Both the position numbers and the translations under genes were made by a program. The notes under the pieces are model-generated. The model was given only the letters and a program-made list of their open reading frames with translations, was not told where the DNA came from and did no database searches. Source: Methyloprofundus sedimenti (lineage in GTDB: Bacteria; Pseudomonadota; Gammaproteobacteria; Methylococcales; Methylomonadaceae). Taken from it: a DNA stretch of 64,000 nucleotides. The stretch spans positions 372,001-436,000 of the forward strand of contig NZ_LPUF01000003.1 in NCBI RefSeq assembly GCF_002072955.1, given 5' to 3'. This document shows positions 35,728 through 46,548 of this stretch, in pieces (positions within the stretch are counted from its first letter, which is position 1; the number at the start of each line of letters is the position of its first letter).

Positions 35728-36107
35728 CTATTTTACCAATTCAAAATCACTTGGCTTCCAGGTCTGATCAAACCAAGCCTGCTCTCGCCTATAAAGGCAC
35801 AGCAGAACATTGTAGCTTTTACTCGGCATCTTTTGAATCCAATTACCCTCATGACCTTTGGGCGCTTTAGGCCCAAACCACATAATATAAGGACCATCGG
35901 CATTTGGCTGCACAGATGGGTTATTACTATCCAGACCTGCTAACTTCTGATCGGTTTCAAGCATGGAGCGCGTTTGACCATCATAAACCATAAATGACCA
36001 GAAATTATTTGCCGGAACGGGCCCTGGTAAAGTCACGCTATAAGTCTTACCTCCTTCAAGATAATGACCTGCCGAATCATGTGCAGCAATCCCACTCCCA
36101 CTGGGCT
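35728..36107 (-). pseudogene. C-terminal remnant of a DUF1254/DUF1214 protein
   Basis: Only the last ~125 codons remain, open from just after an in-frame TAG near 36108: GIAAHDSAGHYLEGGKTYSV followed by TLPGPVPANNFWSF, YDGQTRSMLETDQ, WFGPKAPKGHEGNW and TWKPSDFELVK, all characteristic of the C-terminal DUF1214 domain. The N-terminal DUF1254 half (several hundred residues in intact proteins) is missing. A deletion relic, 41 bp upstream of the DUF4136 gene. Confidence 0.8.
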
Positions 36108-36682
36108 AAATACTTTGTACATAAGTTTTTTCTATTATCTACTAACTACATTAAAAATTATCAGCTGGATACACGCTGAGTTCATACCCTAAAAATATGC
36201 CCATAAGAATACATTGTTTCCAGCCATAATAAACAAAAGAACACCTATAATTAATACGGCTATCCACTTAAAACGAGACAGATTAAAAATCTATAGGGCG
36301 TGACTTTAGCCCGCTAATGACAATCACCTGCGCTAAAGGCGAGCTGAAGCCACGCACTACAAGTATAACTAATGTTCCGCCTTAAATGAGGGAAGTACGG
36401 AGTCAAGGGAAGTACGGAGTCAGATCTATGGGTAAGGCCAGCGAGTATGTTTCTTGATGTGGTTGAACGTGATGAGAAACGGTTTCAGCGATTTGAATTT
36501 TTAGGGGATTCTATCGCTGATATTGAATGAGATATTGGATTGCTATAAACGACGCACGTCACCATAAAGAATGGCGGCGTAAACTTAGTTTATAAATCAA
36601 GTTGGCTGTCCCCTTGAAGTTCTTACCCAGAATTTCTTACCTAAAAATAAGTAACAGTTTATGCCGCTATTTCTAGGTGGCA
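36108..36682. other. Non-coding decayed stretch with repeat scraps
   Basis: No intact gene. It holds a palindromic scrap around 36290-36360 (GGGCGTGACTTTAGCCCGC, echoed at about 47230 and 48310), a tandem GGGAAGTACGGAGTCA pair (36394-36422), a short plus-strand frame reading FLDVVERDEKRFQRFEFLGD (about 36450-36527) that may be a transposase scrap, and GCGTAAACTTAG near 36578 resembling the ends of the MITE at 34414. Confidence 0.4.
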
Positions 36683-37000
36683 TTAAGACCATAAATTTGT
36701 AGAGGGCATTATGTAGAACTCGCCCGCGTTGCCTGCACTCTGTAAGTCTTTTAAGATTTGTTCGTATAAATCGCCAAACAAATGCCGCTCTTGTGAGTCG
36801 GTAAAGTCAATTTCATTGAGTTTGTTAATCACCTGGCGTAACAGCGTGCCATTTTTCATGTAGTTAAAGGCATCGCTAAACGCTTCTTTAACGACAAAAC
36901 CACGCGTGCAACCAAGGGGGGAGGTCTTGTATTGTGCATTCTTTGGTTTTAATTCCGTATATTTTTTATCTAACAATCCCATCTTTAATCTCCTTATCAA
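36683..37000 (-). pseudogene. Duplicated internal fragment of hsdM
   Basis: Codons for RGFVVKEAFSDAFNYMKNGT through LQSAGNAGEFY reproduce HsdM residues ~102-165 (present intact at 40965-41155) with identical protein sequence but around a dozen base differences, mostly synonymous. Both ends are unrelated sequence (MGLLDKKYTELKPKNAQYKT before; IMPSTNLWS after). It lies 6 bp after hsdS on the same strand. Likely the scar of recombination with a second, diverged type I locus rather than a fresh copy. Confidence 0.85.
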
Positions 37001-37006
37001 TAATGC

Positions 37007-38716
37007 TTAATTTATTGCCTGTTCGACGATGGTATCGGCGAGGTGGAGTTGGGTGGTTTGGGCTTGGCTGAGGCGGGTTTTTAGTTGGTCGCATAGAGTC
37101 ATTAGTTCATCGGCTTTTTTTACTATGCGGTGTTGTTCGGCTAGTGGTGGAAAAGGCACAGGTACTTTTTTAAGCTTACTTGCTTTTATCCCTCCTGCTG
37201 CTGAGCCTGTCTGATTGTCTTTAATAATATCTTGAAACTGTTGTGACATAAGTACATACAAAAAAAACGTTGTATCAAATTTCATAAAGGGCTGAAAACA
37301 AATAGTTCTTTGAGCTAACGCAAATTCATATTCTAGTTCTACAAGGCTCACAAAACCCATTGTATGTCCTTCCGTGACAAATAAAATGTCACCAATTTGA
37401 GGAAAGCCTCTGACCATCCAACTTTTATATAGTTCTTCACTTATATATTCTATTGGGTCATTCTTAATAAAACCCATTCTAATGTTTTTTGCCGTTATAA
37501 TTCGCTTTCCTTTATCTGACTTCGCAGGGTTTTTTCCTCTATAGTCAATGAATTTAAATAAATCTTGGAGTTCAATTTTTGACCATTGTTTGGGGTATGA
37601 CCAATCACAATTTTCTCTGATTATATTATCTACGGAGAGGCTCTTCTTGATTTTCTTATCTTTAATTAACTGCTCTTTTTCAGCGGCTATTTTTTTCAGT
37701 AATACGGACGCGGGTTCGTCGTTGGGGTTTTGTGGGACGAGTTTGCCTATAACCGCGAGTTGTAAGACGGTTTGTTTTAGCTGGTCGATGCTGTGCTCTG
37801 TGGTGAACAGGGTATCGAAGTGTGCGGCGATTCTTGTCCAGCTTTGATTAAAGGCTGCTGTATTTTCGCTGCTGGTCAGTGTGGCCAGCAGGGTTTCCAC
37901 TAAGGTTTGATGGGCGGTGATGCTGTTTTCGGTTTGTTGCTCTAACTGATCACACAAAGCCATAAGTTCATCGACTTTGGCGACGATGCGGTATTGTTCT
38001 TTAAACGGAGGAACTGCAAATAGTCCTTCTCTTAATGATTTCGTGTCTAAATGTGGTATTGCTGCTCCTTTCATTGAGCTATTGAGCCGCTGAAAAGCTT
38101 GTCTGAAAAAAAGCTTAACATACACTTGTATATACGTTGGCGTTTCTATGATTGCAAGTGTAGATCCAATTACGCCATCTTTTCCATCAAGAACTAAGCC
38201 GCTACGAGAGCCATCGCATACAACTAAAATATCCTTATTGGTTGATCTAGGACATTTTTCATCGTCCGTATATCTAAGTATATTGCCTCTATCTAATGCT
38301 TCAATATCTAGGTAAGGGGAACCAATATTATTTTCGGATAAATTTTTTGGTTTTTTCCCTTTTGTTAAAGTAAATAAATCAATATTTTTACTCCACTCCC
38401 ATCCATCAGGCAATTCAAACGGCTTTTCATCCTCACCAATCTCAGGCAGGGCTTTAGACGGTTTAATCTTTTTATCTTTAATTAATTGCTCTTTTTCAGC
38501 TGCAATTCTTTTCAGCAATACCGATGCAGGTTCATCATTGGGATCTTGCGGTACTAATTGTCCGCGCACTGCCAGTTCCAAAATCAACTCACGCAGTTTT
38601 TTAATGCCGGTCAGTTCTATTTTTTTATTACTGCCACGTCCTTGTGATGAGCGTTTTTTGATGGCGGATGTCCAAATATCAATATATTCTGTTATTAATG
38701 TGTGAGTATCAGCCAT
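37007..38716 (-). CDS. hsdS: Type I restriction enzyme specificity subunit (HsdS)
   Basis: A 569-residue DNA-recognition subunit with two target-recognition domains. TRD1 spans about residues 100-255 (PFELPDGWEWSK ... PPFKEQYRIVAKVDELMALC) and TRD2 about 365-545 (ENCDWSYPKQWSK ... FPPLAEQHRIVKKADELMTLC). Each is preceded by the same conserved helix block, LVPQDPNDEPASVLLKRIAA (about 55) and LVPQNPNDEPASVLLKKIAA (about 320). The duplicated blocks allow domain exchange by recombination. Partner of HsdM and HsdR encoded upstream on the same strand. Confidence 0.92.
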   Translation of the reverse strand: MADTHTLITEYIDIWTSAIKKRSSQGRGSNKKIELTGIKKLRELILELAVRGQLVPQDPNDEPASVLLKRIAAEKEQLIKDKKIKPSKALPEIGEDEKPFELPDGWEWSKNIDLFTLTKGKKPKNLSENNIGSPYLDIEALDRGNILRYTDDEKCPRSTNKDILVVCDGSRSGLVLDGKDGVIGSTLAIIETPTYIQVYVKLFFRQAFQRLNSSMKGAAIPHLDTKSLREGLFAVPPFKEQYRIVAKVDELMALCDQLEQQTENSITAHQTLVETLLATLTSSENTAAFNQSWTRIAAHFDTLFTTEHSIDQLKQTVLQLAVIGKLVPQNPNDEPASVLLKKIAAEKEQLIKDKKIKKSLSVDNIIRENCDWSYPKQWSKIELQDLFKFIDYRGKNPAKSDKGKRIITAKNIRMGFIKNDPIEYISEELYKSWMVRGFPQIGDILFVTEGHTMGFVSLVELEYEFALAQRTICFQPFMKFDTTFFLYVLMSQQFQDIIKDNQTGSAAGGIKASKLKKVPVPFPPLAEQHRIVKKADELMTLCDQLKTRLSQAQTTQLHLADTIVEQAIN

Positions 38717-38764
38717 TATTGATAAGCTCCACCGCTAACACATGGAAAAAAGAAATTTGGTTTT

Positions 38765-38841
38765 ACCATGAAGCGCATGAAGGACTTGAAGTTAAAAAAA
38801 CGGATGCCTTTCACTTCATTATCTTCCTGCCCTTCATGGTG
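38765..38841 (+). repeat. CATGAAG palindromic repeat, copy between Fic gene and hsdS
   Basis: Begins ACCATGAAGCGCATGAAGGA and ends CCCTTCATGGTGAGC, with the core CTTGAAGTTAAAAAA. Same family and orientation as the array at 41503-42030 and the copy at 42461. Confidence 0.85.
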
Positions 38842-38989
38842 AGCATTATTCTGTGGAAAAAAGAAAAGCTTTACTGTCATCTCTGCCTCTTATTTTTTTG
38901 AGTCTTGTTAACGGATAGCATATTCATAATAGATAGTTCCCACGGTCTGGAGCATGGGTACGAGGCGGTTATTAATGTGTTGATAGCGG

Positions 38990-39982
38990 TCATGCGGACT
39001 CTTCTACTGTTTTATTGTTTACCGACAACATAGTCATAATCAGTCGGATTAAGGTTTCTTTTTGTTTAGGGTCTGATTCTGCAACCAGTAAGGTTAAAGC
39101 CGCCAAGCCTGTGTCATTGATAATAGGCTCGCCGTGTTGATTAAATAAATGTTGGTTGCGGTGTAAAAAATCTACAAACAAAAAGGCACCACTGCGTTTA
39201 TTACCATCGGCAAAAGGATGGTTTTTTACGATGAAATAAAGCAGATGCGCGGCTTTGCTTTCTATCGTTGGATAAGCAGGTTCACCGAACACCGTTTGTT
39301 CTAAATTACCTAATAAGGCAGCTAAACCCTCACCGCGTGGTTGTGCGAATAAGTGAGTGGCTTCACCGCGCTTTATTAAGCTTTGTTTTAATTCAGCCAA
39401 TGAGTGACTGGCTTGCGCAAAGCTGGGTAATTTTCCGCCTGCGGTTCCATTGGGTTCTGTTAATAAGCCTTCGTCATAACGCTGTAACCACAAAAAAGTT
39501 TGCGTATAACGGCTGACTATTTCGATCAAACCTCTGCCTGTGTCGCTATTTAGCTCAGGTGATAAAGCGACTTTCTGGACTAACTTTAATGCGGCTTCCA
39601 GTGCCTGTGCATTTTCTTCAAAGCGTTGCTGATTGAGCGTGTAACCTTGGGTGAGGTGTTGTTTTAATAGTTTGCTTGCCCATTGGCGAAAGCGTACACC
39701 TTGTTGAGACTTTACTCTGTAGCCTACAGAGATAATAACGTCTAAATTAAAAGATTCTACTTGGTAGGTTTTACCGTCACGCGCAGTTGTTGCATTTTTT
39801 GCAACAACTGAAGAACGTATAAGCTCTTCATCTTTAAAAATATTTCGTATATGACGAGAAATAACAGATTTATCCCGTCCAAATAACTGTGTCATTTGTT
39901 CAAGGTTAAGCCAAACCGTATCTTGCTCTAGTTGAACCTGAATCTCTCCGTTTGGACTTTCAAAAATAACTATTTCATTCAT
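38990..39982 (-). CDS. RhuM-type protein with C-terminal Fic/Doc domain
   Basis: A 330-residue two-domain protein. Residues ~1-115 are a RhuM/virulence-type DNA-binding-like region (VWLNLEQMTQLFGRDKSVIS, VESFNLDVIISVGYRVKSQQG, VRFRQWASKLLKQHL). Residues ~170-310 are a Fic/Doc domain with active site HPFADGNKRSGAF, catalytic His255. Fic enzymes transfer AMP, other nucleotides or phosphate to proteins. No inhibitory (S/T)xxxE(G/N) motif is obvious. It starts 11 bp after hsdM and precedes hsdS, so it is part of the type I R-M operon and may be a toxin-like back-up. Confidence 0.9.
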   Translation of the reverse strand: MNEIVIFESPNGEIQVQLEQDTVWLNLEQMTQLFGRDKSVISRHIRNIFKDEELIRSSVVAKNATTARDGKTYQVESFNLDVIISVGYRVKSQQGVRFRQWASKLLKQHLTQGYTLNQQRFEENAQALEAALKLVQKVALSPELNSDTGRGLIEIVSRYTQTFLWLQRYDEGLLTEPNGTAGGKLPSFAQASHSLAELKQSLIKRGEATHLFAQPRGEGLAALLGNLEQTVFGEPAYPTIESKAAHLLYFIVKNHPFADGNKRSGAFLFVDFLHRNQHLFNQHGEPIINDTGLAALTLLVAESDPKQKETLIRLIMTMLSVNNKTVEESA

Positions 39983-39993
39983 TATTTATGACC

Positions 39994-41454
39994 TTATGCA
40001 TTAAGTGCATTATTTAAAATAGTTTTCAACTGCTCGCGCAAAGCCTGAATATCCGCTTGTTGCTGGCTGTAATGGCTGAGTAATTCTTCTGGGTCATGAC
40101 TGATGACCTCACCAATATGCGGATTTTTAATATCTAAATTAAAATTACGCTCGATAATATCTTGAATGCTGACTTGCCAGGCCTGTTCAGTCTCTACCCG
40201 TTTGGCAAAACCATCGGCTTCCTCGCCCCACCAGTCTATTTCGGTTTGAAATTCTTCAAATTTCATCGGTTTGGTTTTATTATAATTTTTTACGCCCTCT
40301 GGATACGGGTGTTCGTAATACCAGATGTTTTCGGTGGGTTTGCCTTTGGTAAAAAATAAAATATTGGTTTTAATGCCCGTGTAAGGCGCAAACACGCCAT
40401 TGGGTAAACGCACGATGGTGTGTAAATTACATTCTTCAGTGAGTAACTTTTTGATTTTGGTTTTGACGCCTTCACCAAATAAAGTACCGTCAGGTAAGAC
40501 CACCGCTGCACGGCCACCGTCTTTTAACACTTCAATAATCAGCTGTAAGAATAAATCAGCGGTTTCACGGGTACGAAATTCAGCGGGAAAGTTGTTTTCT
40601 ATGCCGTCTTCTTCGGTGCCGCCAAACGGTGGATTAGTAACGATAACATCGAGCTGATCATCCCAACTGGACAGCGGCTTGCTTAAGGTATTGCCGTGTT
40701 TGATTTGTACGGGGACTTCGATACCGTGCAAGAGCATATTGGTGGTGCAGAGTAAGTGCGGTAATTGTTTTTTCTCTACGCCATGAATTTGCTTTTGCAG
40801 GATCGGTAAATCGGTGCTGGTATTTTTAATATAATGTTGTTTAACATGCTCAAAGGAGCAGGCTAAAAAGCCACCGGTACCGCAAGCTGGATCCATAATG
40901 CTTTCACCCAGCTTGGGGTCTATGCGGTTGACCATAAAGCTGGTCACGGCTCGGGGGGTGTAAAACTCGCCCGCGTTGCCCGCACTCTGTAGGTCTTTTA
41001 AGATTTGTTCGTAGAGATCACCAAACAAATGCCGTTCTTGCGAGTCGGTAAAGTCAATTTCGTTGAGCTTGTTAATGACTTGGCGTAACAGTGTGCCGTT
41101 TTTCATGTAGTTAAAGGCATCGCTAAACGCTTCTTTAACGACAAAACCACGCGGATTAAGCGTAATCGGTGCGGTTAAGTTTTTAAGATCAGGAAACAGT
41201 TGGTCGTTGACAAAACCGAGTAATTCTTCACCGGTTATGCCTTCGTTGTCTGCTGCCCAGTTGCGCCATAAGTATTGTGTGGGCAGTGGTTCGCGGTAAT
41301 TATCTTGTTCAAATTCTAGCTCTTCTTCCTGGGCATCAAATATCTTTAAAAACAGCAACCAAGACATTTGACCTAAACGTTGTGCATCGCCATCTACACC
41401 TGCATCTTTACGCATGATATCTTGAATGGATTTTATAACGGAGCTGACTGACAT
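39994..41454 (-). CDS. hsdM: Type I restriction enzyme methyltransferase subunit (HsdM)
   Basis: A 486-residue N6-adenine methyltransferase. The N-terminal helical domain (1-160) precedes the AdoMet motif DPACGTGG (188-195) and catalytic NPPF (274-277). Its C-terminal helices contact HsdS. Ribosome site AAGAGA right before the ATG; 12 bp upstream lies a (GTGTT)5 repeat, followed by an array of palindromic repeats. Residues 102-165 are duplicated as a fragment at 36683-37000. Confidence 0.95.
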   Translation of the reverse strand: MSVSSVIKSIQDIMRKDAGVDGDAQRLGQMSWLLFLKIFDAQEEELEFEQDNYREPLPTQYLWRNWAADNEGITGEELLGFVNDQLFPDLKNLTAPITLNPRGFVVKEAFSDAFNYMKNGTLLRQVINKLNEIDFTDSQERHLFGDLYEQILKDLQSAGNAGEFYTPRAVTSFMVNRIDPKLGESIMDPACGTGGFLACSFEHVKQHYIKNTSTDLPILQKQIHGVEKKQLPHLLCTTNMLLHGIEVPVQIKHGNTLSKPLSSWDDQLDVIVTNPPFGGTEEDGIENNFPAEFRTRETADLFLQLIIEVLKDGGRAAVVLPDGTLFGEGVKTKIKKLLTEECNLHTIVRLPNGVFAPYTGIKTNILFFTKGKPTENIWYYEHPYPEGVKNYNKTKPMKFEEFQTEIDWWGEEADGFAKRVETEQAWQVSIQDIIERNFNLDIKNPHIGEVISHDPEELLSHYSQQQADIQALREQLKTILNNALNA

Positions 41455-41466
41455 GTTTTCTCTTTA

Positions 41467-41491
41467 GTGTTGTGTTGTGTTGTGTTGTGTT
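41467..41491. repeat. (GTGTT)5 microsatellite just before hsdM
   Basis: Five perfect tandem GTGTT units (AACAC on the coding strand), 12 bp upstream of the hsdM ATG. Slippage would change promoter or leader spacing by 5 bp per unit. Simple-sequence repeats in this position switch expression of some restriction-modification genes; here that is inference. Confidence 0.85.
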
Positions 41492-41502
41492 GTTTTATTT
41501 TT

Positions 41503-42030
41503 ACCATGAAGCGCATGAAGTACTTGAAGTTAAAAAAATCTTATTGTCTTTCCCTTCATTATCTTCATGTCCTTCATGTCCTTCATGGTGACAATAATTC
41601 AGTTTTACCATAAAGTACATGAAGGGCTTGAAGTTAAAAAATCTTACGTCTTTTCCTTCAGTATCTTCATTATCTTCATGGTGACAATAATTCGGTTTTA
41701 CCATGAAGTGCATGAAGGACATGAAGTTAAAAAATATTACGTCTTTTCCTTCATTATCTTCATGGCCTTCATGGTGACAATAATTCGGTTTTACCATGAA
41801 GTGCATGAAGGACATGAAGTTAAAAAATATTACGTCTTTTCCTTCATTATCTTCATGGCCTTCATGGTGACAATAATTCGGTTTTACCATGAAGTGCATG
41901 AAGGACATGAAGTTAAAAAATATTACGTCTTTTCCTTCATTATCTTCATGGTGACAATAATTCGGTTTTACCATGAAGATAATGAAGTACTTGAAGTTAA
42001 AAAAATCTTATTGTCTTTCCCTTCATTATG
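41503..42030 (+). repeat. Tandem array of six CATGAAG palindromic repeats
   Basis: Units begin (ACCATGAAG) at 41503, 41607, 41700, 41793, 41886 and 41970, with spacings 104, 93, 93, 93 and 84 bp. Each starts ACCATGAAGTGCATGAAGGA, has the core CATGAAGTTAAAAAATATTA, and ends CTTCATGGTGACAATAATTC, so its two ends are inverse complements (ACCATGAAG/CTTCATGGT). Units 3-5 are nearly identical; outer ones diverge. The last is cut at the stop of the GxxExxY gene. Unlike CRISPR there is no short constant repeat with unique spacers. Confidence 0.92.
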
Positions 42031-42037
42031 GATGATG

Positions 42038-42427
42038 TCATAAAATAAAGCTTTTTAACCCTTGCTTTAATAGCTTCACATTAAAATTGATTAAGAACCC
42101 TTGTTTGATGTTCATTAATTTCATATAGGTCAAAAGCTGTGCTTCGTGTATTCCCTTTAATTGTTCTACACTTTTTAATTCCAAAATTATTTTATCTTCA
42201 ACTAATAAATCTAATCTATAACCACAATCTAATTGAATTCCTTTATAGTTTACGGGTAAAGGGTACTCGATTTTAAACTTAATATGATTAATGCTTAATT
42301 CGTGGGCAAGACATTGCTGGTAAGTCGATTCCAGTAGGCCTGGACCAAGTGTTTTATGAACTTCAATTGCACAACCAATCACCTTATTTGATAAATCGCT
42401 AAACTCTCTTCCCGTCATTACTCTCAT
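42038..42427 (-). CDS. GxxExxY protein (PD-(D/E)XK nuclease-like)
   Basis: A 129-residue protein with the family motif GPGLLESTY (GxxExxY) at about 29-37, preceded by VIGCAIEVHKTL, and a nuclease-like core DCGYRLDLLVEDKIILELKS (D-x-n-E-x-K, about 70-89) resembling the PD-(D/E)XK active site. Cytoplasmic; function unknown. It is inserted in the type I R-M operon between hsdR and hsdM, with an AAGGAT site before the first ATG. The same palindromic repeats lie directly on both sides (ending at 42030 and starting at 42461), suggesting gene and repeats form one unit. Confidence 0.88.
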   Translation of the reverse strand: MRVMTGREFSDLSNKVIGCAIEVHKTLGPGLLESTYQQCLAHELSINHIKFKIEYPLPVNYKGIQLDCGYRLDLLVEDKIILELKSVEQLKGIHEAQLLTYMKLMNIKQGFLINFNVKLLKQGLKSFIL

Positions 42428-42460
42428 ATCCTTGTGGTGATAGAAAAAAGGCTTGTTTTT

Positions 42461-42536
42461 ACCATGAAGTGCATGACGGACTTGAAGTTAAAAAAATCTT
42501 ATCGCCTTTCACTTCATTATCTTCATGTCCTTCATG
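42461..42536 (+). repeat. CATGAAG palindromic repeat between hsdR and the GxxExxY gene
   Basis: Begins ACCATGAAGTGCATGACGGA, core CTTGAAGTTAAAAAAATCTT, ends TCCTTCATGGTGA. Same orientation as the array on the other side of the GxxExxY gene. Confidence 0.88.
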
Positions 42537-42552
42537 GTGATAAAACAATTTA

Positions 42553-44985
42553 TTAGCTGGCTTTATCTGAATAAAGTTCAGTTTCTAGCTCACTAATGGC
42601 GGCATTATATTTTTGTGCGCCGCCAAAGGCTTTTTTAGCTATTTCTAAGGGACGGCCAAAAGGAATAATGATATTGGCTTTTAAGGCATCTTTGCCTTCA
42701 ATGGCTTTGACGCCTTCATCCGCATAGCCGTCTAATAAAGCGTTTAAGACTTTCTGGGCGATTTCTGAATAGTGGCTAAAGTAATGTCTTTTTTTAACAT
42801 TATTGGCACGTTCTTGTCGGGTTAAGGGCGGTTGATCAAAGACAATATGACAAATTAAATCAAAAGGGTCTAAATCTTTACTTACATCTTGTTCTAGGGC
42901 TTCCCAGATAACGCCTTCCGCCGCGAGTTCATCAATGATCACTTGTTTGCGGTCGGCCTCTTGCCATTTGCGGGTGAAATCGTCGAGTGAGGCAAATTGT
43001 TTTTTAATGGTATTGCGGGTGTAATCTTTAAAGGATTCGGTAACCAGTTTGCCGTCGGTATCGTAATATTGCACGCGTTCGGCTATTTTCTTGACCGTCA
43101 CACCGGCCACATGGAATTTAATATAAGGGGTTGATTCGTCTTCACCCCATTTTTCAGCTGATTCGCCCGAGCCAAAGTCCGTGCCGTCAGCCGGTTTATA
43201 GTCAGACTCTGGGTCATTGATTTTGGGCTGATCTTCTTCTGAGCTTTTCTCATTAGTACCGTTAAGCTCATCGATAAAGTCGGAATTGTCTTCATCAATA
43301 ATAACTTCTGGCTTGGTCACGAGGATTTTTTCAGGGATACCGTCAAAGTTTTTATCCGCGAATAATTCGGTGGCTTTTTTAAAATCTAAAATGGTAAACC
43401 ATAATTTATTATATCTATCGTCTATGCGTGTACCTCGACCAATAATTTGTTTAAACTTGGTCATGGATTGAATATTTTGATCCAGCACCACGAGTTTGCA
43501 GGTTTTAGCATCCACGCCGGTGCTCATTAACTCAGAGGTGGTGACAATGACGGGATAGGCTTTTTTAGGATTAATAAAGTTATCCAGCTGGGCTTTGCCG
43601 ATTTCATCATCGCCCGTGATTTTCATCACATATTTATCATTTTTGGCGACTTGCTCAGGATTTAAGTTAATCAGTGCGCGACGCATACGGTCTGCATGGT
43701 TGATGTCGTTACAAAAGACAATGGTTTTAGCCATCGGATCGGTCCGTTTTAAATAACTGGTAATAGTTTGTGCGACCAATTGGGTGCGCTCATCGATTAC
43801 TAAGTTACGATCAAAATCTTTTTGGTTAAAGATACGGTCATTAATCAACTCGCCGTTTTTATCCCTCTGACCTTTGGTAGGCCGCCAGCCTTGTAGATCA
43901 ATATCAATATCGACTCGAATCACTTTATATGGCGCTAAGAAACCATCTTCAATGCCTTCCTTTAAGGAATAGGTGTAAATGGGGTCGCCAAAATAATCCG
44001 TATTCGATATGTCTTTGGTTTCTTTTGGCGTAGCCGTTAAACCTATTTGCGTGGCAGCACTAAAGTATTCCAGAATTTCACGCCAGGCACTGTCTTCAGC
44101 CGCACTGCCGCGATGACACTCGTCAATAATAATTAAATCAAAGAAGTTTTTATCGACTTGTTTATAGGCTTTCTGATTCTCTTCAGGACCGGTTAAGGCT
44201 TGATATAGTGCAAGATGTATCTCGAAAGCGGGATCGACCGTGCGACCCGTGACTTTGGTCATTGCTGTGCCGAAGGGTTCAAAGTCATTAATACGGGTTT
44301 GATCGACTAATATATTTCTATCGGCTAAAAATAAAATGCGTTTTTTCTGATGCGCTTTCCATAAACGCCAAATAATTTGAAACGCGGTGTAGGTTTTTCC
44401 CGTGCCGGTCGCCATCACCAAGAGCATGCGGTTTTTACCTTCCGAGACCGCTTCAATGGTTTTATTAATAGCTTTTAATTGATAATAGCGCGGTGTTTTG
44501 CCACTGCCATCATCATGATAGGATTGAGTGATTAATGGCAGCTGAGCGGCGGTGTAGCCACGATAAGCGCAATACTTTAACCAGAGCTGTTCGGGGGTAG
44601 GAAAGTCGGCGAGTTGAATTTCTGTTTCGAGTTGCGTGGTATTGGTTTTATCATGAAAAATGAAACCATCACCGTTGGAGGCGAAGATAAAAGGAACTTC
44701 CAGTAAGCGCGCATAATCCATGCCTTGCTGCATGCCTTTGCCAATCTCATGTTTATTGGCTTTCGCTTCAATCACCGCCAGCGGTAGGTTAGGTTTATGG
44801 TAGAGGACAATATCCGCCGACTTTACTGTTTTACGTATGCCCAGCTGCCCGCGTACGATAACTTTACCATCACGCAATTTAACCTCCTGGCGGATCTGCG
44901 TCATCAAATCCCAGCCTGCTTTTTGAATTGCCGGCATGATGAATTTACTGATGATGTCCGTTTCGCTAAGCTTTTTTTTGTCCAT
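42553..44985 (-). CDS. hsdR: Type I restriction enzyme R subunit (HsdR, EcoEI-like)
   Basis: An 810-residue motor/nuclease subunit. The N-terminal nuclease domain contains a PD-(D/E)XK-like core, ending [20 protein letters not shown] (E-x-K). The SF2 helicase has Walker [22 protein letters not shown]-type box [14 protein letters not shown], and motif [13 protein letters not shown]. The C-terminal region is the EcoEI-type domain binding HsdM. It is the first gene of the island on the minus strand, and the length and motifs look intact. Confidence 0.94.
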
Positions 44986-45086
44986 GTGGGTATTCCTTTA
45001 CTTTGATGGGTTTTGTTGTTTATAAAAATAACTCGCGGGTTGTGCTGCTAAATTATGACAGATATTTAAAATATTACATATCCCAC

Positions 45087-45693
45087 TTAAATAGCGAACT
45101 TCATTGAGTGATTAACAAAGCTTTGAGCATTATCTGTACTGATGCATTTCAACCCTTCGGCATAAGCTTGATATAACGCTTCAACGGTTCGTGGTCTTTG
45201 TTTGCGTAAGTACTGTTTAATTTTATTCCATGCTAATTCAATCGGGTTAAGGTCAGGTGAGTAAGGCGGTAGGTAAATAAGCTTTGCTCCTGTCTTTTGA
45301 ATAAGATCCTTAATTTCATCTACTTTATGAACTGAGGCATTATCCATCACAACATAGTCACCTTCAGCGAGTAAGGGGCAAAGAAAATGCTTCAAAAAGT
45401 AGAGGAATACAAGTCCTGTCATGGTTCCTTCAAAATTTAAGGCGGTTTTCATACCGGCTGATGTCATTGCCCCGACCATACTTATACGCTGCCCTTTAGC
45501 AACCGGCGCTTCATCATAAACACGCTGATCTGACGGTGCTCGCCCATAAAGAGGTGAGAGATTCAGTCCTGCGCCCATTTCATCAAGAAAAATGAGCTTA
45601 TCGAGCGATATATCGGCGATTTCAGTGCAATAGTCTATTTTTAGCTTTTTAGTTCGGTCACAATATTTAGCTGGATCGTACGGACTTTTTTTT
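45087..45693 (-). CDS. IS630 transposase orfB (DDE domain)
   Basis: Catalytic half of the transposase. The DDE residues are visible: LIFLDEMGAG (first Asp), YVVMDNASVHK (second Asp) and LPPYSPDLNPIELAW (Glu). The reading frame has no own start upstream of about 45578; it extends back to the A8 run at 45686-45693, where a one-base shift joins it to orfA. All three catalytic residues are present, so the element may be active if slippage occurs. Confidence 0.85.
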
Positions 45694-46038
45694 ATATCGA
45701 ATATTCATACGCTTAAGAGCTCTATCCATTGAACTTTTCCCCATGCTAATACCAAAGTGTTCAGCATATCGGTCACAAAGATCATTTAGTGTCAAATCAG
45801 GCTTTTTTATTAGCCATTCTTTTATCTCAAGAGCACCCGCTTCATCTACTTTTGGTGCAACATGCCCGCCTACTTTTTTGGCTGCAATCATGCCAGTTTC
45901 CTGGTAATGTTGCCATAAGGTATAAACAAAAGAATAAGAAACAGCGAAACGTTTAGCTATATCAGGTTTACTTTGTTTGTCTATCTCAATAGCATTGAGC
46001 ACTTTTTTTCGAATATCGACTGAGTAAGGGGCTGGCAC
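45667..46038 (-). CDS. IS630 transposase orfA (helix-turn-helix)
   Basis: DNA-binding half, 123 residues, starting at GTG (MPAPYSVDIRKKVLNAIE). The HTH region is SKPDIAKRFAVSYSFVYTLW, with a second winged part WLIKKPDLTLNDLCDRYAEHFGIS. It ends shortly after the A8 run; reading one base on at that run continues into the DDE half as IKKSPYDPAKYCDRTKKLKI. Confidence 0.85.
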   Translation of the reverse strand: MPAPYSVDIRKKVLNAIEIDKQSKPDIAKRFAVSYSFVYTLWQHYQETGMIAAKKVGGHVAPKVDEAGALEIKEWLIKKPDLTLNDLCDRYAEHFGISMGKSSMDRALKRMNIRYKKKSVRSS

Positions 46039-46257
46039 AAAAATATGATTGATAACGGAGAACTGGGAAAGCTATAGTACATTAAAATTCAATTCATTAA
46101 TACGGGAAATGTAATAAAAAGGAAATATACGGTAGCCGTTTGAGAAAACTCAATTTCCTTCCGTAAAAATTCGGTCTATTTTTTGTATTGACTCAAACTC
46201 GATCTGACGATTTTAAGATTAGTTATAAACAAACTTTGGAATAACTGGGGGAGGACA

Positions 46258-46548
46258 GAGTAAACTTAAATTATTTACTTTTTCCTTCCGCCAACCAACA
46301 GGTCTCCACATTTTTTTGCTGTCATCCTCCGCTCTGTTAAGCTCTCAATTTCTGCTATAAACCGTTCATCTCTGGTCACCATACATTGGTTTGTCTCAAT
46401 TCGAATCTCTTCCAATAATTGTCTTTCGATTGGATATTAAAAAAATTCACGGTAATTTTCTTCTTGCACCAGGCAGGATTTAAACCGACCTTCCCAAAGC
46501 GTCCCCGTTCGCTTGCTCAACTGAATATTTTCATGTAACCATAAAAAA
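46258..46548 (-). pseudogene. Decayed REP-associated (Y1) tyrosine transposase
   Basis: On the minus strand FLWLHENIQLSKRTGTLWEG followed by RFKSCLVQEENYREFF matches the conserved RTGTLWEGRFKSSLV region of REP-associated transposases, then a stop. Further on, FIAEIESLTER and a basic tail RPVGWRKEK in other frames match the family's C-terminus. Stops and frame changes show decay. The flank GTAAACTTAAATTATTTA is shared with the MITE at 34414-34587. The rest of the 46076-46606 gap holds only the ssb terminator. Confidence 0.75.

Follow-up and report, generated by a model that had tools for sequence, protein, structure and literature searches.

The closest described systems are the REPtrons, in which RAYT genes are accompanied by REP and REPIN repeats, and the TIRtrons (TIRYT); in both a nuclease-type gene lies between two inverted palindromes, and gene-less copies and clusters also occur (PMC2817692, PMC3116915, PMC3733652). 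The repeat type in these systems is also tied to the protein (PMC2817692, PMC3116915, PMC3733652). Their genes encode HUH/Y1 tyrosine transposases. The locus analysed in this study lies in a 64,000-nucleotide stretch of the Methyloprofundus sedimenti contig NZ_LPUF01000003.1 (the window; positions below are those of this stretch), where a GxxExxY gene is enclosed by inverted arms. Given that its anatomy is RAYT/REP-like but its enzyme belongs to another superfamily, we class it as a system that functions in the manner of a REPtron but is not one. In Pfam and NCBIfam scans at E 0.001, the window protein matched PF13366 and TIGR04256 and nothing else, so that no HUH/Y1 match was obtained; moreover, GxxExxY arms consist of consecutive direct units of 8-10 bp, and GTAG was absent from either strand of the two solo palindromes that were read (41503-41589 and 41700-41775). 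The Rpn proteins, by comparison, belong to the PD-(D/E)XK superfamily. Rpn nucleases (YhgA-like, transposase_31, PF04754) are described as proteins annotated as transposases that are thought to spread horizontally, and the products of RpnA cleavage as able to act as primers for polymerase and so permit joining through template switching (PMC5350276); this gives a precedent for an enzyme that moves DNA although it does no more than cut. The window protein differs from these in having no PF04754 or PF12784 match (Pfam, E 0.001), and flanking arms go unmentioned in the abstract on Rpn (PMC5350276). The palindromes also resemble the MITEs of DDE insertion sequences in being short gene-less elements with inverted ends, some of which are internally deleted forms of a gene-bearing parent. 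They differ in that a tip duplication of 3-8 bp was found in 0 of 61 elements, and in that the window unit holds the GxxExxY gene alone, with no DDE transposase. In the open-access literature searched (the best-ranked entries where result lists were long), an association of GxxExxY genes with arms was not described, and GxxExxY itself was mentioned only in passing. From the analyses below, we consider that the gene and its two inverted arms probably form a single REPtron-like mobile element that is moved by its GxxExxY PD-(D/E)XK nuclease, with joining by host enzymes. For GxxExxY, a common protein, an association with inverted arms that differ by clade offers a role open to test.

As the earlier note on this DNA had stated, the 129-residue GxxExxY gene stands between hsdR and hsdM, within a type I restriction-modification (R-M) operon on the minus strand. 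The features of the locus are as follows.

37007-38716: hsdS
38765-38840 (blastn match 38754-38851), plus strand: solo palindrome between fic and hsdS (blastn, half-site scan, fold)
38990-39982: Fic/RhuM gene, matching PADLOC candidate PDC-S23
39994-41454, minus strand: hsdM, host operon, outside the unit (MTase_I, E 4.8e-239)
41503-41589 (blastn match 41499-41600), plus strand: solo palindrome, one arm with an extra 9-bp unit (blastn, half-site scan, fold)
41607-41682 (blastn match 41596-41694), plus strand: solo palindrome (blastn, half-site scan)
41700-41775 (blastn match 41689-41787), plus strand: solo palindrome (blastn, half-site scan, fold)
41793-41868 (blastn match 41782-41880), plus strand: solo palindrome (blastn, half-site scan)
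41886-41952 (blastn match 41875-41964), plus strand: solo palindrome (blastn, half-site scan)
41970-42438, minus strand: gene-bearing unit of 469 bp, left arm plus GxxExxY gene plus right arm (ACC-to-GGT alignment with locus L022, flanks unlike)
41970-41996 (half copy 41970-42029; blastn match 41959-42029), plus strand: right arm of the gene unit, without the far half
42038-42427, minus strand: GxxExxY gene, 129 aa, PD-(D/E)XK nuclease family (TIGR04256, PF13366, alignment of 69 proteins, AF2 model)
42412-42438, minus strand: degenerate left arm of the gene unit; overlaps the start codon (alignment to the L022 arm)
42461-42538 (blastn match 42457-42543), plus strand: solo palindrome upstream of the gene unit (blastn, half-site scan, fold)
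42553-44985, minus strand: hsdR, host operon, outside the unit (NF046051, 1161 bits)

Within 3.8 kb round the gene, blastn (E at most 2.8e-15) found eight strong copies of a CATGAAG-type palindrome, one of them a half only, and all on a single strand; the number and common orientation reported in the earlier note were therefore confirmed, as was its copy between the Fic gene and hsdS. Its six tandem copies were reduced to five complete solos on one side of the gene unit, the sixth (41970-42029) being an end arm that belongs to the gene unit itself; one further solo lies on the other side. When the window was scanned with the half-site ACCATGAAGNNCATGAAG, allowing up to 3 mismatches, 29 matches were obtained versus 0.71 expected, and 0 of 100 shuffles reached 29. 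Each arm starts with ACC, followed by a run of CATGAAG-like units at 9-bp spacing. The window has a 93-bp head-to-tail array of 5.0 copies, as would be seen if a chance palindrome beside a nuclease gene had simply been amplified by ordinary tandem duplication in this genome. In genome G067, however, solos likewise stand on either side of the gene, as in the window, although the arm sequence is another one, and arms lie round most GxxExxY genes examined. These two findings refute tandem duplication as a full account, which we regard as very improbable, and it may explain the array in the window.

Four palindrome copies were folded on both strands, and all 8 folds were far above shuffles in stability (z -5.1 to -7.7). 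Such strong RNA folding, together with the overlap of some GxxExxY arms with the start codon and the location of units inside operons, would suit arms that serve the gene as regulatory RNA or as terminator hairpins, are retained for the sake of expression or self-limitation, and owe their spread to recombination and not to the nuclease. An Rfam scan of 36000-46500, however, gave no RNA family at gathering score, solos occur far from any GxxExxY gene, a solo site is empty in sister genomes, and homology begins at the arm. A purely regulatory role for the arms is thus quite improbable.

The boundaries of the gene-bearing unit were set by alignment. In L022, the closest relative (a Methylococcales MAG; 88% protein identity), the match to the window unit runs from ACC to GGT, and the DNA outside is unlike. 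Seven relatives were aligned with their flanks, the window unit occupying 301-769 in alignment coordinates. In 6 of the 7 the match begins at 291-312, and in L054, which is partial, at 579. The end of the match falls at 757-773 in L022, L023, L024, and L054, and the three more distant relatives stop at 697-709, before the end of the unit. In these alignments, homology between unrelated loci starts at the arm.

The window protein was assigned to the GxxExxY family by TIGR04256 (151.2 bits, cut-off 35) and PF13366 (PDDEXK_3; 146.9 bits, cut-off 22). Its motif residues are G30-xx-E33-xx-Y36, D73, E83-x-K85, and Q97-xxx-Y101; when 69 proteins were aligned, Y36, D73, K85, Q97, Y101, and F115 were invariant in 69/69, and G30, E33, and E83 were kept in at least 90%. 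QxxxY is a mark of RecB/Cas4 nucleases. A search by sequence gave no solved structure relative at E 1. The AF2 model had a mean pLDDT of 94.3, and its top Foldseek matches in the PDB were SSO0001 (4ic1, a Cas4 protein), lambda exonuclease (6m9k, 1avq), and then AdnAB. These matches were weak: the best E was 1.7e-3, so that the 0.001 level was not reached, and TMq was 0.41-0.51 in the top nine. The predicted structure therefore resembles Cas4, lambda exonuclease, and AdnAB in a weak fold likeness and in the conserved D73, E83-x-K85, and Q97-xxx-Y101, and differs in that the GxxExxY protein has just 129 aa. The gene is under purifying selection, because dN/dS was 0.06-0.12 in 6 of 8 pairs, the remaining 2 being saturated. 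Two other identities were considered and rejected: that of plasmid or phage cargo, since the protein occurred in 8 of 72,556 plasmid records and 0 of 50,697 phage records, and that of a known defence gene, since PADLOC gave no match for it. A single scan of viral contigs gave 63 pattern matches and no relative, and a search for the palindrome in plasmids and E. coli genomes gave no match.

To assess arms elsewhere, one scan of species genomes yielded 103 loci with a GxxExxY relative, of which 80 were kept. GxxExxY proteins were 70-88% identical between Methylococcales, Lentisphaerae, Wenzhouxiangella, Planctomycetes, Deltaproteobacteria, and Latescibacterota, and identity this high between such distant groups points to spread of these genes by horizontal transfer. 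Arms were scored as the best inverted match between both flanks of a gene, for which 77 of the 80 loci were testable (three had too little flank); mispaired flanks (610 pairs) served as the null, with a 95% point of 28 and a 99% point of 41. A score of at least 30 was reached at 58/77 GxxExxY loci compared with 6/310 other ORFs of the same loci; 16/77 GxxExxY loci fell below 28. One of the six scoring control ORFs matched the model of the REP-associated tyrosine transposase (50 bits, below the cut-off of 80), so the assay also detects a gene of a known repeat-flanked kind. Another, a four-helix-bundle (23S IVP) gene at L097:2653-3168, also lies between periodic inverted repeats and could be a further gene carried by repeats. 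A second set comprised the best scorers among own-phylum loci (29 fetched, 28 usable); here a score of at least 28 was reached at 20/28 and of at least 30 at 18/28, with 0 of only 7 control ORFs at 28 or more. Far from generally lacking such repeats, as would have told against the earlier note, homologues thus have arms at 58/77 and 18/28 loci, with arm sequence differing between clades, and a gene between two inverted repeats is the first point of likeness to REPtrons. A two-unit motif, in which inward-facing units lie 8-10 bp apart, was defined after inspection of both sets; it was present on both sides of the gene at 30/79 and 21/28 loci versus 0/340 control ORFs, with 0/79 and 0/28 for both sides on the wrong strand, and on either side at 46/79 and 26/28 loci versus 33/340. 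Among the 36 loci with enough flank, extra arms numbered 0.34 per kb within 1.5 kb of the gene versus 0.08 beyond.

The internal structure of the arms was examined in the 80 loci, 18 hand-picked loci, and the window (99 in all), of which 76 had enough flank and a score of at least 28. Arm self-match peaked at lag 9 (0.39 versus 0.29 in shuffles), and the best lag was 9 in 45 loci, 10 in 13, 8 in 8, and another value in 10. GxxExxY arms are about three direct units of 8-10 bp, inverted between the two sides, and unit types include CATGAAG, CACAGAG, CACGGAG, CACGAAT, CGCAGAG, and CGCCAAG. Across 58 loci, arm similarity correlated with protein similarity (Mantel rho 0.23, reached by 0 of 2000 permutations), a second likeness to REPtrons that was carried mostly by pairs above 60% identity and that fits mere joint inheritance as much as recognition.

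Co-occurrence of gene and repeat was measured in two samples, and both counts pooled gene clades irrespective of arm type. Among 61 relatives, the CATGAAG half-site was present in 25 genomes and a GxxExxY match in 17. The half-site occurred in 6/17 genomes with a match versus 19/44 without, so at this level there is no gene link for the CATGAAG arm type; five or more half-sites occurred in 4/17 versus 5/44. G046 (complete, 5.1 Mb) holds 129 half-sites, and G020, G044, and G026 hold 35, 22, and 17, all with no GxxExxY match. Most GxxExxY genes of the 17 relatives may use other arm types. Among 398 genomes of the window's own phylum, 65 of which carry GxxExxY, a CACGAAK-type repeat was found in 27/65 with the gene versus 13/333 without (p 8e-15); the link was weak within the dominant family (25/45 versus 8/29, p 0.016), and the remainder gave 2/20 versus 5/304 (p 0.063). 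The possibility that the repeats spread with no tie to GxxExxY genes was thus borne out in part: among the 61 relatives the CATGAAG half-site is just as common in gene-free genomes, some of them rich in it.

In its own 4.29-Mb genome, the window gene is the one GxxExxY match. A half-site search that tolerated one mismatch gave 22 hits, of which 15 fall in this locus; among the 7 others are those of a solo at C3:346580 and of two arms, at C3:461557 and C3:463050. These two arms (L010, C3:461557-463067), which are of the CATGAAG type, are separated by 1.5 kb in which a TIR-domain ORF (PF13676) and a small ORF lie, possibly a larger cargo. Nineteen genomes were also selected for CATGAAG arms near their GxxExxY gene, and because of this selection the presence of half-sites in all 19 is no test; they held 5 to 277 half-sites each, with the backward pattern at 0, once 1. 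In G019, 8 elements were recovered by strict pairing from 16 arm-holding stretches, and 5 of these elements enclose remnants of the GxxExxY gene, from either gene end (tblastn against 20 elements, E from 2.8e-4 to 4.8e-29). Some short palindromes thus contain internally deleted GxxExxY genes. G007 gave 12 elements, 1 with an intact GxxExxY gene and 11 without trace of it, and the 10 elements of G046 gave no gene remnant (best E 0.028). On contig C35 of G007 (L148-L149), about 30 half-sites lie within 27 kb, an unusual clustering for which an integron-like explanation, considered from a list of ORFs, is possible.

These counts bear on a further explanation, in which the palindromes are MITE-like, are moved by an unlinked transposase, and have GxxExxY as a frequent passenger. 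It would accommodate the genomes rich in half-sites without a GxxExxY match, the lack of a link among the 61 relatives, the other DNA carried by G046 and most G007 elements, and the pair of arms in the window's own genome that has a TIR-domain ORF in its 1.5-kb interval. Against it, a single small gene family is arm-flanked across many phyla with many arm types, the tips show no duplication of the DDE kind, and a relative of the REP transposase at L063 was found in just 2/80 loci, one being L063 itself, which also led us to reject a linked REP transposase. We therefore consider a passenger role for GxxExxY unlikely, and the reading in which the gene and its arms form one element is preferred.

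Movement of that element was examined by comparing sister genomes. In G066 and G071, a gene unit lies between the same two genes, presumably narG and narH; in G060 the gap between them is 44 bp versus 695 in G066. The place of the G067 array (1153-1223 bp) holds 92, 47, and 102 bp in G075, G078, and G061, respectively. The empty-site sequence was read for G060, G075, and G061, and G078 was judged by spacing. Five G071 solo sites were tried, and for two of them both flanks were found in a sister. At one, a 141-bp solo and its interior are missing in G066 and G077 and, by reading, also in G074 and G060. The second site holds a solo of reduced length in G066 and no solo in G077 or G060. Base-exact ends are not fixed by these comparisons, because the matched pieces are only 71-92% identical. 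When the G066 unit was used as a query, arms were found in G066 (13 matches) and G071 (35), both gene carriers, and none in G060, G074, or G077; G060 and G074 have weak matches of larger ORFs to the GxxExxY family model (41.5 and 43.3 bits). Loss in the sisters, rather than gain in the carrier, is the less likely reason for these absences. Beyond the tips, a duplication search at ten outward offsets gave 3 cells exceeding shuffles (3 versus 0.44, 4 versus 0.62, and 6 versus 2.06), to which no weight was given because the element copies in the set are related; no clear target duplication was found. Empty sites for gene units are thus seen in G060, G075, G078, and G061, and for a solo in G066 and G077. 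Mobility of the unit of GxxExxY gene and arms is well supported, and the suggestion of a self-contained, possibly mobile unit that expanded within the island gains support from the arms across phyla, these empty sites, and the homology starting at the arm; expansion near the gene is likewise seen at other loci, where extra arms cluster round it.

In the mechanism that we propose, a single-gene unit bounded by ACC...GGT arms would move and leave gene-less solo palindromes, some via internal deletion. The GxxExxY protein, placed in the Cas4/lambda-exonuclease group, would most likely recognise the arms, whether folded into DNA hairpins or read as spaced binding units, and would cut at them, and host repair or replication would then copy the element into AT-rich intergenic gaps. 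In the window, one unit would have landed between hsdR and hsdM, and solos would then have multiplied in tandem. A hydrolytic nuclease by itself does not join DNA, and we infer that the GxxExxY nuclease cuts the arms and is the mover, with the joining done by host enzymes. If this nuclease is indeed the mover, the unit would be an undescribed kind of self-spreading DNA. More broadly, and tentatively, GxxExxY genes may form a separate and very widespread element class with a lone PD-(D/E)XK nuclease, hairpin arms, clade-specific arm codes, and no transposase, recombinase, or target duplication; the many HEGHEGHEG-, TEDTEGTE-, and DTKDTKD-like repeats (peptide names) between bacterial genes would then be its gene-less offspring. 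The tie between GxxExxY and its arms would account for a large group of unnamed intergenic palindromes and would bring a PD-(D/E)XK nuclease into the small circle of enzymes to which the spread of REP-like DNA is ascribed; it would also supply a compact nuclease whose recognition site is built in and can evolve.

Further observations were made on the G071 and G066 solos (L253-L267), of which 7/13 are 135-144 bp; they share arms, and their interiors are unrelated in sequence. Unrelated interiors in these G071 solos of about 138 bp are not expected of plain deletion derivatives. In three of the solos (L255, L262, and L263), a second repeat is nested, with pairwise interior scores of 58-140.

The R-M operon setting of the unit is incidental, as judged from gene neighbourhoods. 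When the 80 GxxExxY loci were searched by tblastn, which covers close relatives, hsdM relatives were found in 1/80 and hsdR, hsdS, and fic relatives in 0/80, and a role as an R-M accessory gene was therefore rejected. Within the operon, 5.4 copies of the pentanucleotide GTGTT (41467-41493), some 13 bp upstream of where hsdM starts, form a possible phase-variation tract. Beyond hsdS, a 195-bp stretch (36712-36906) is a copy of part of hsdM (40959-41153), with 93% identity.
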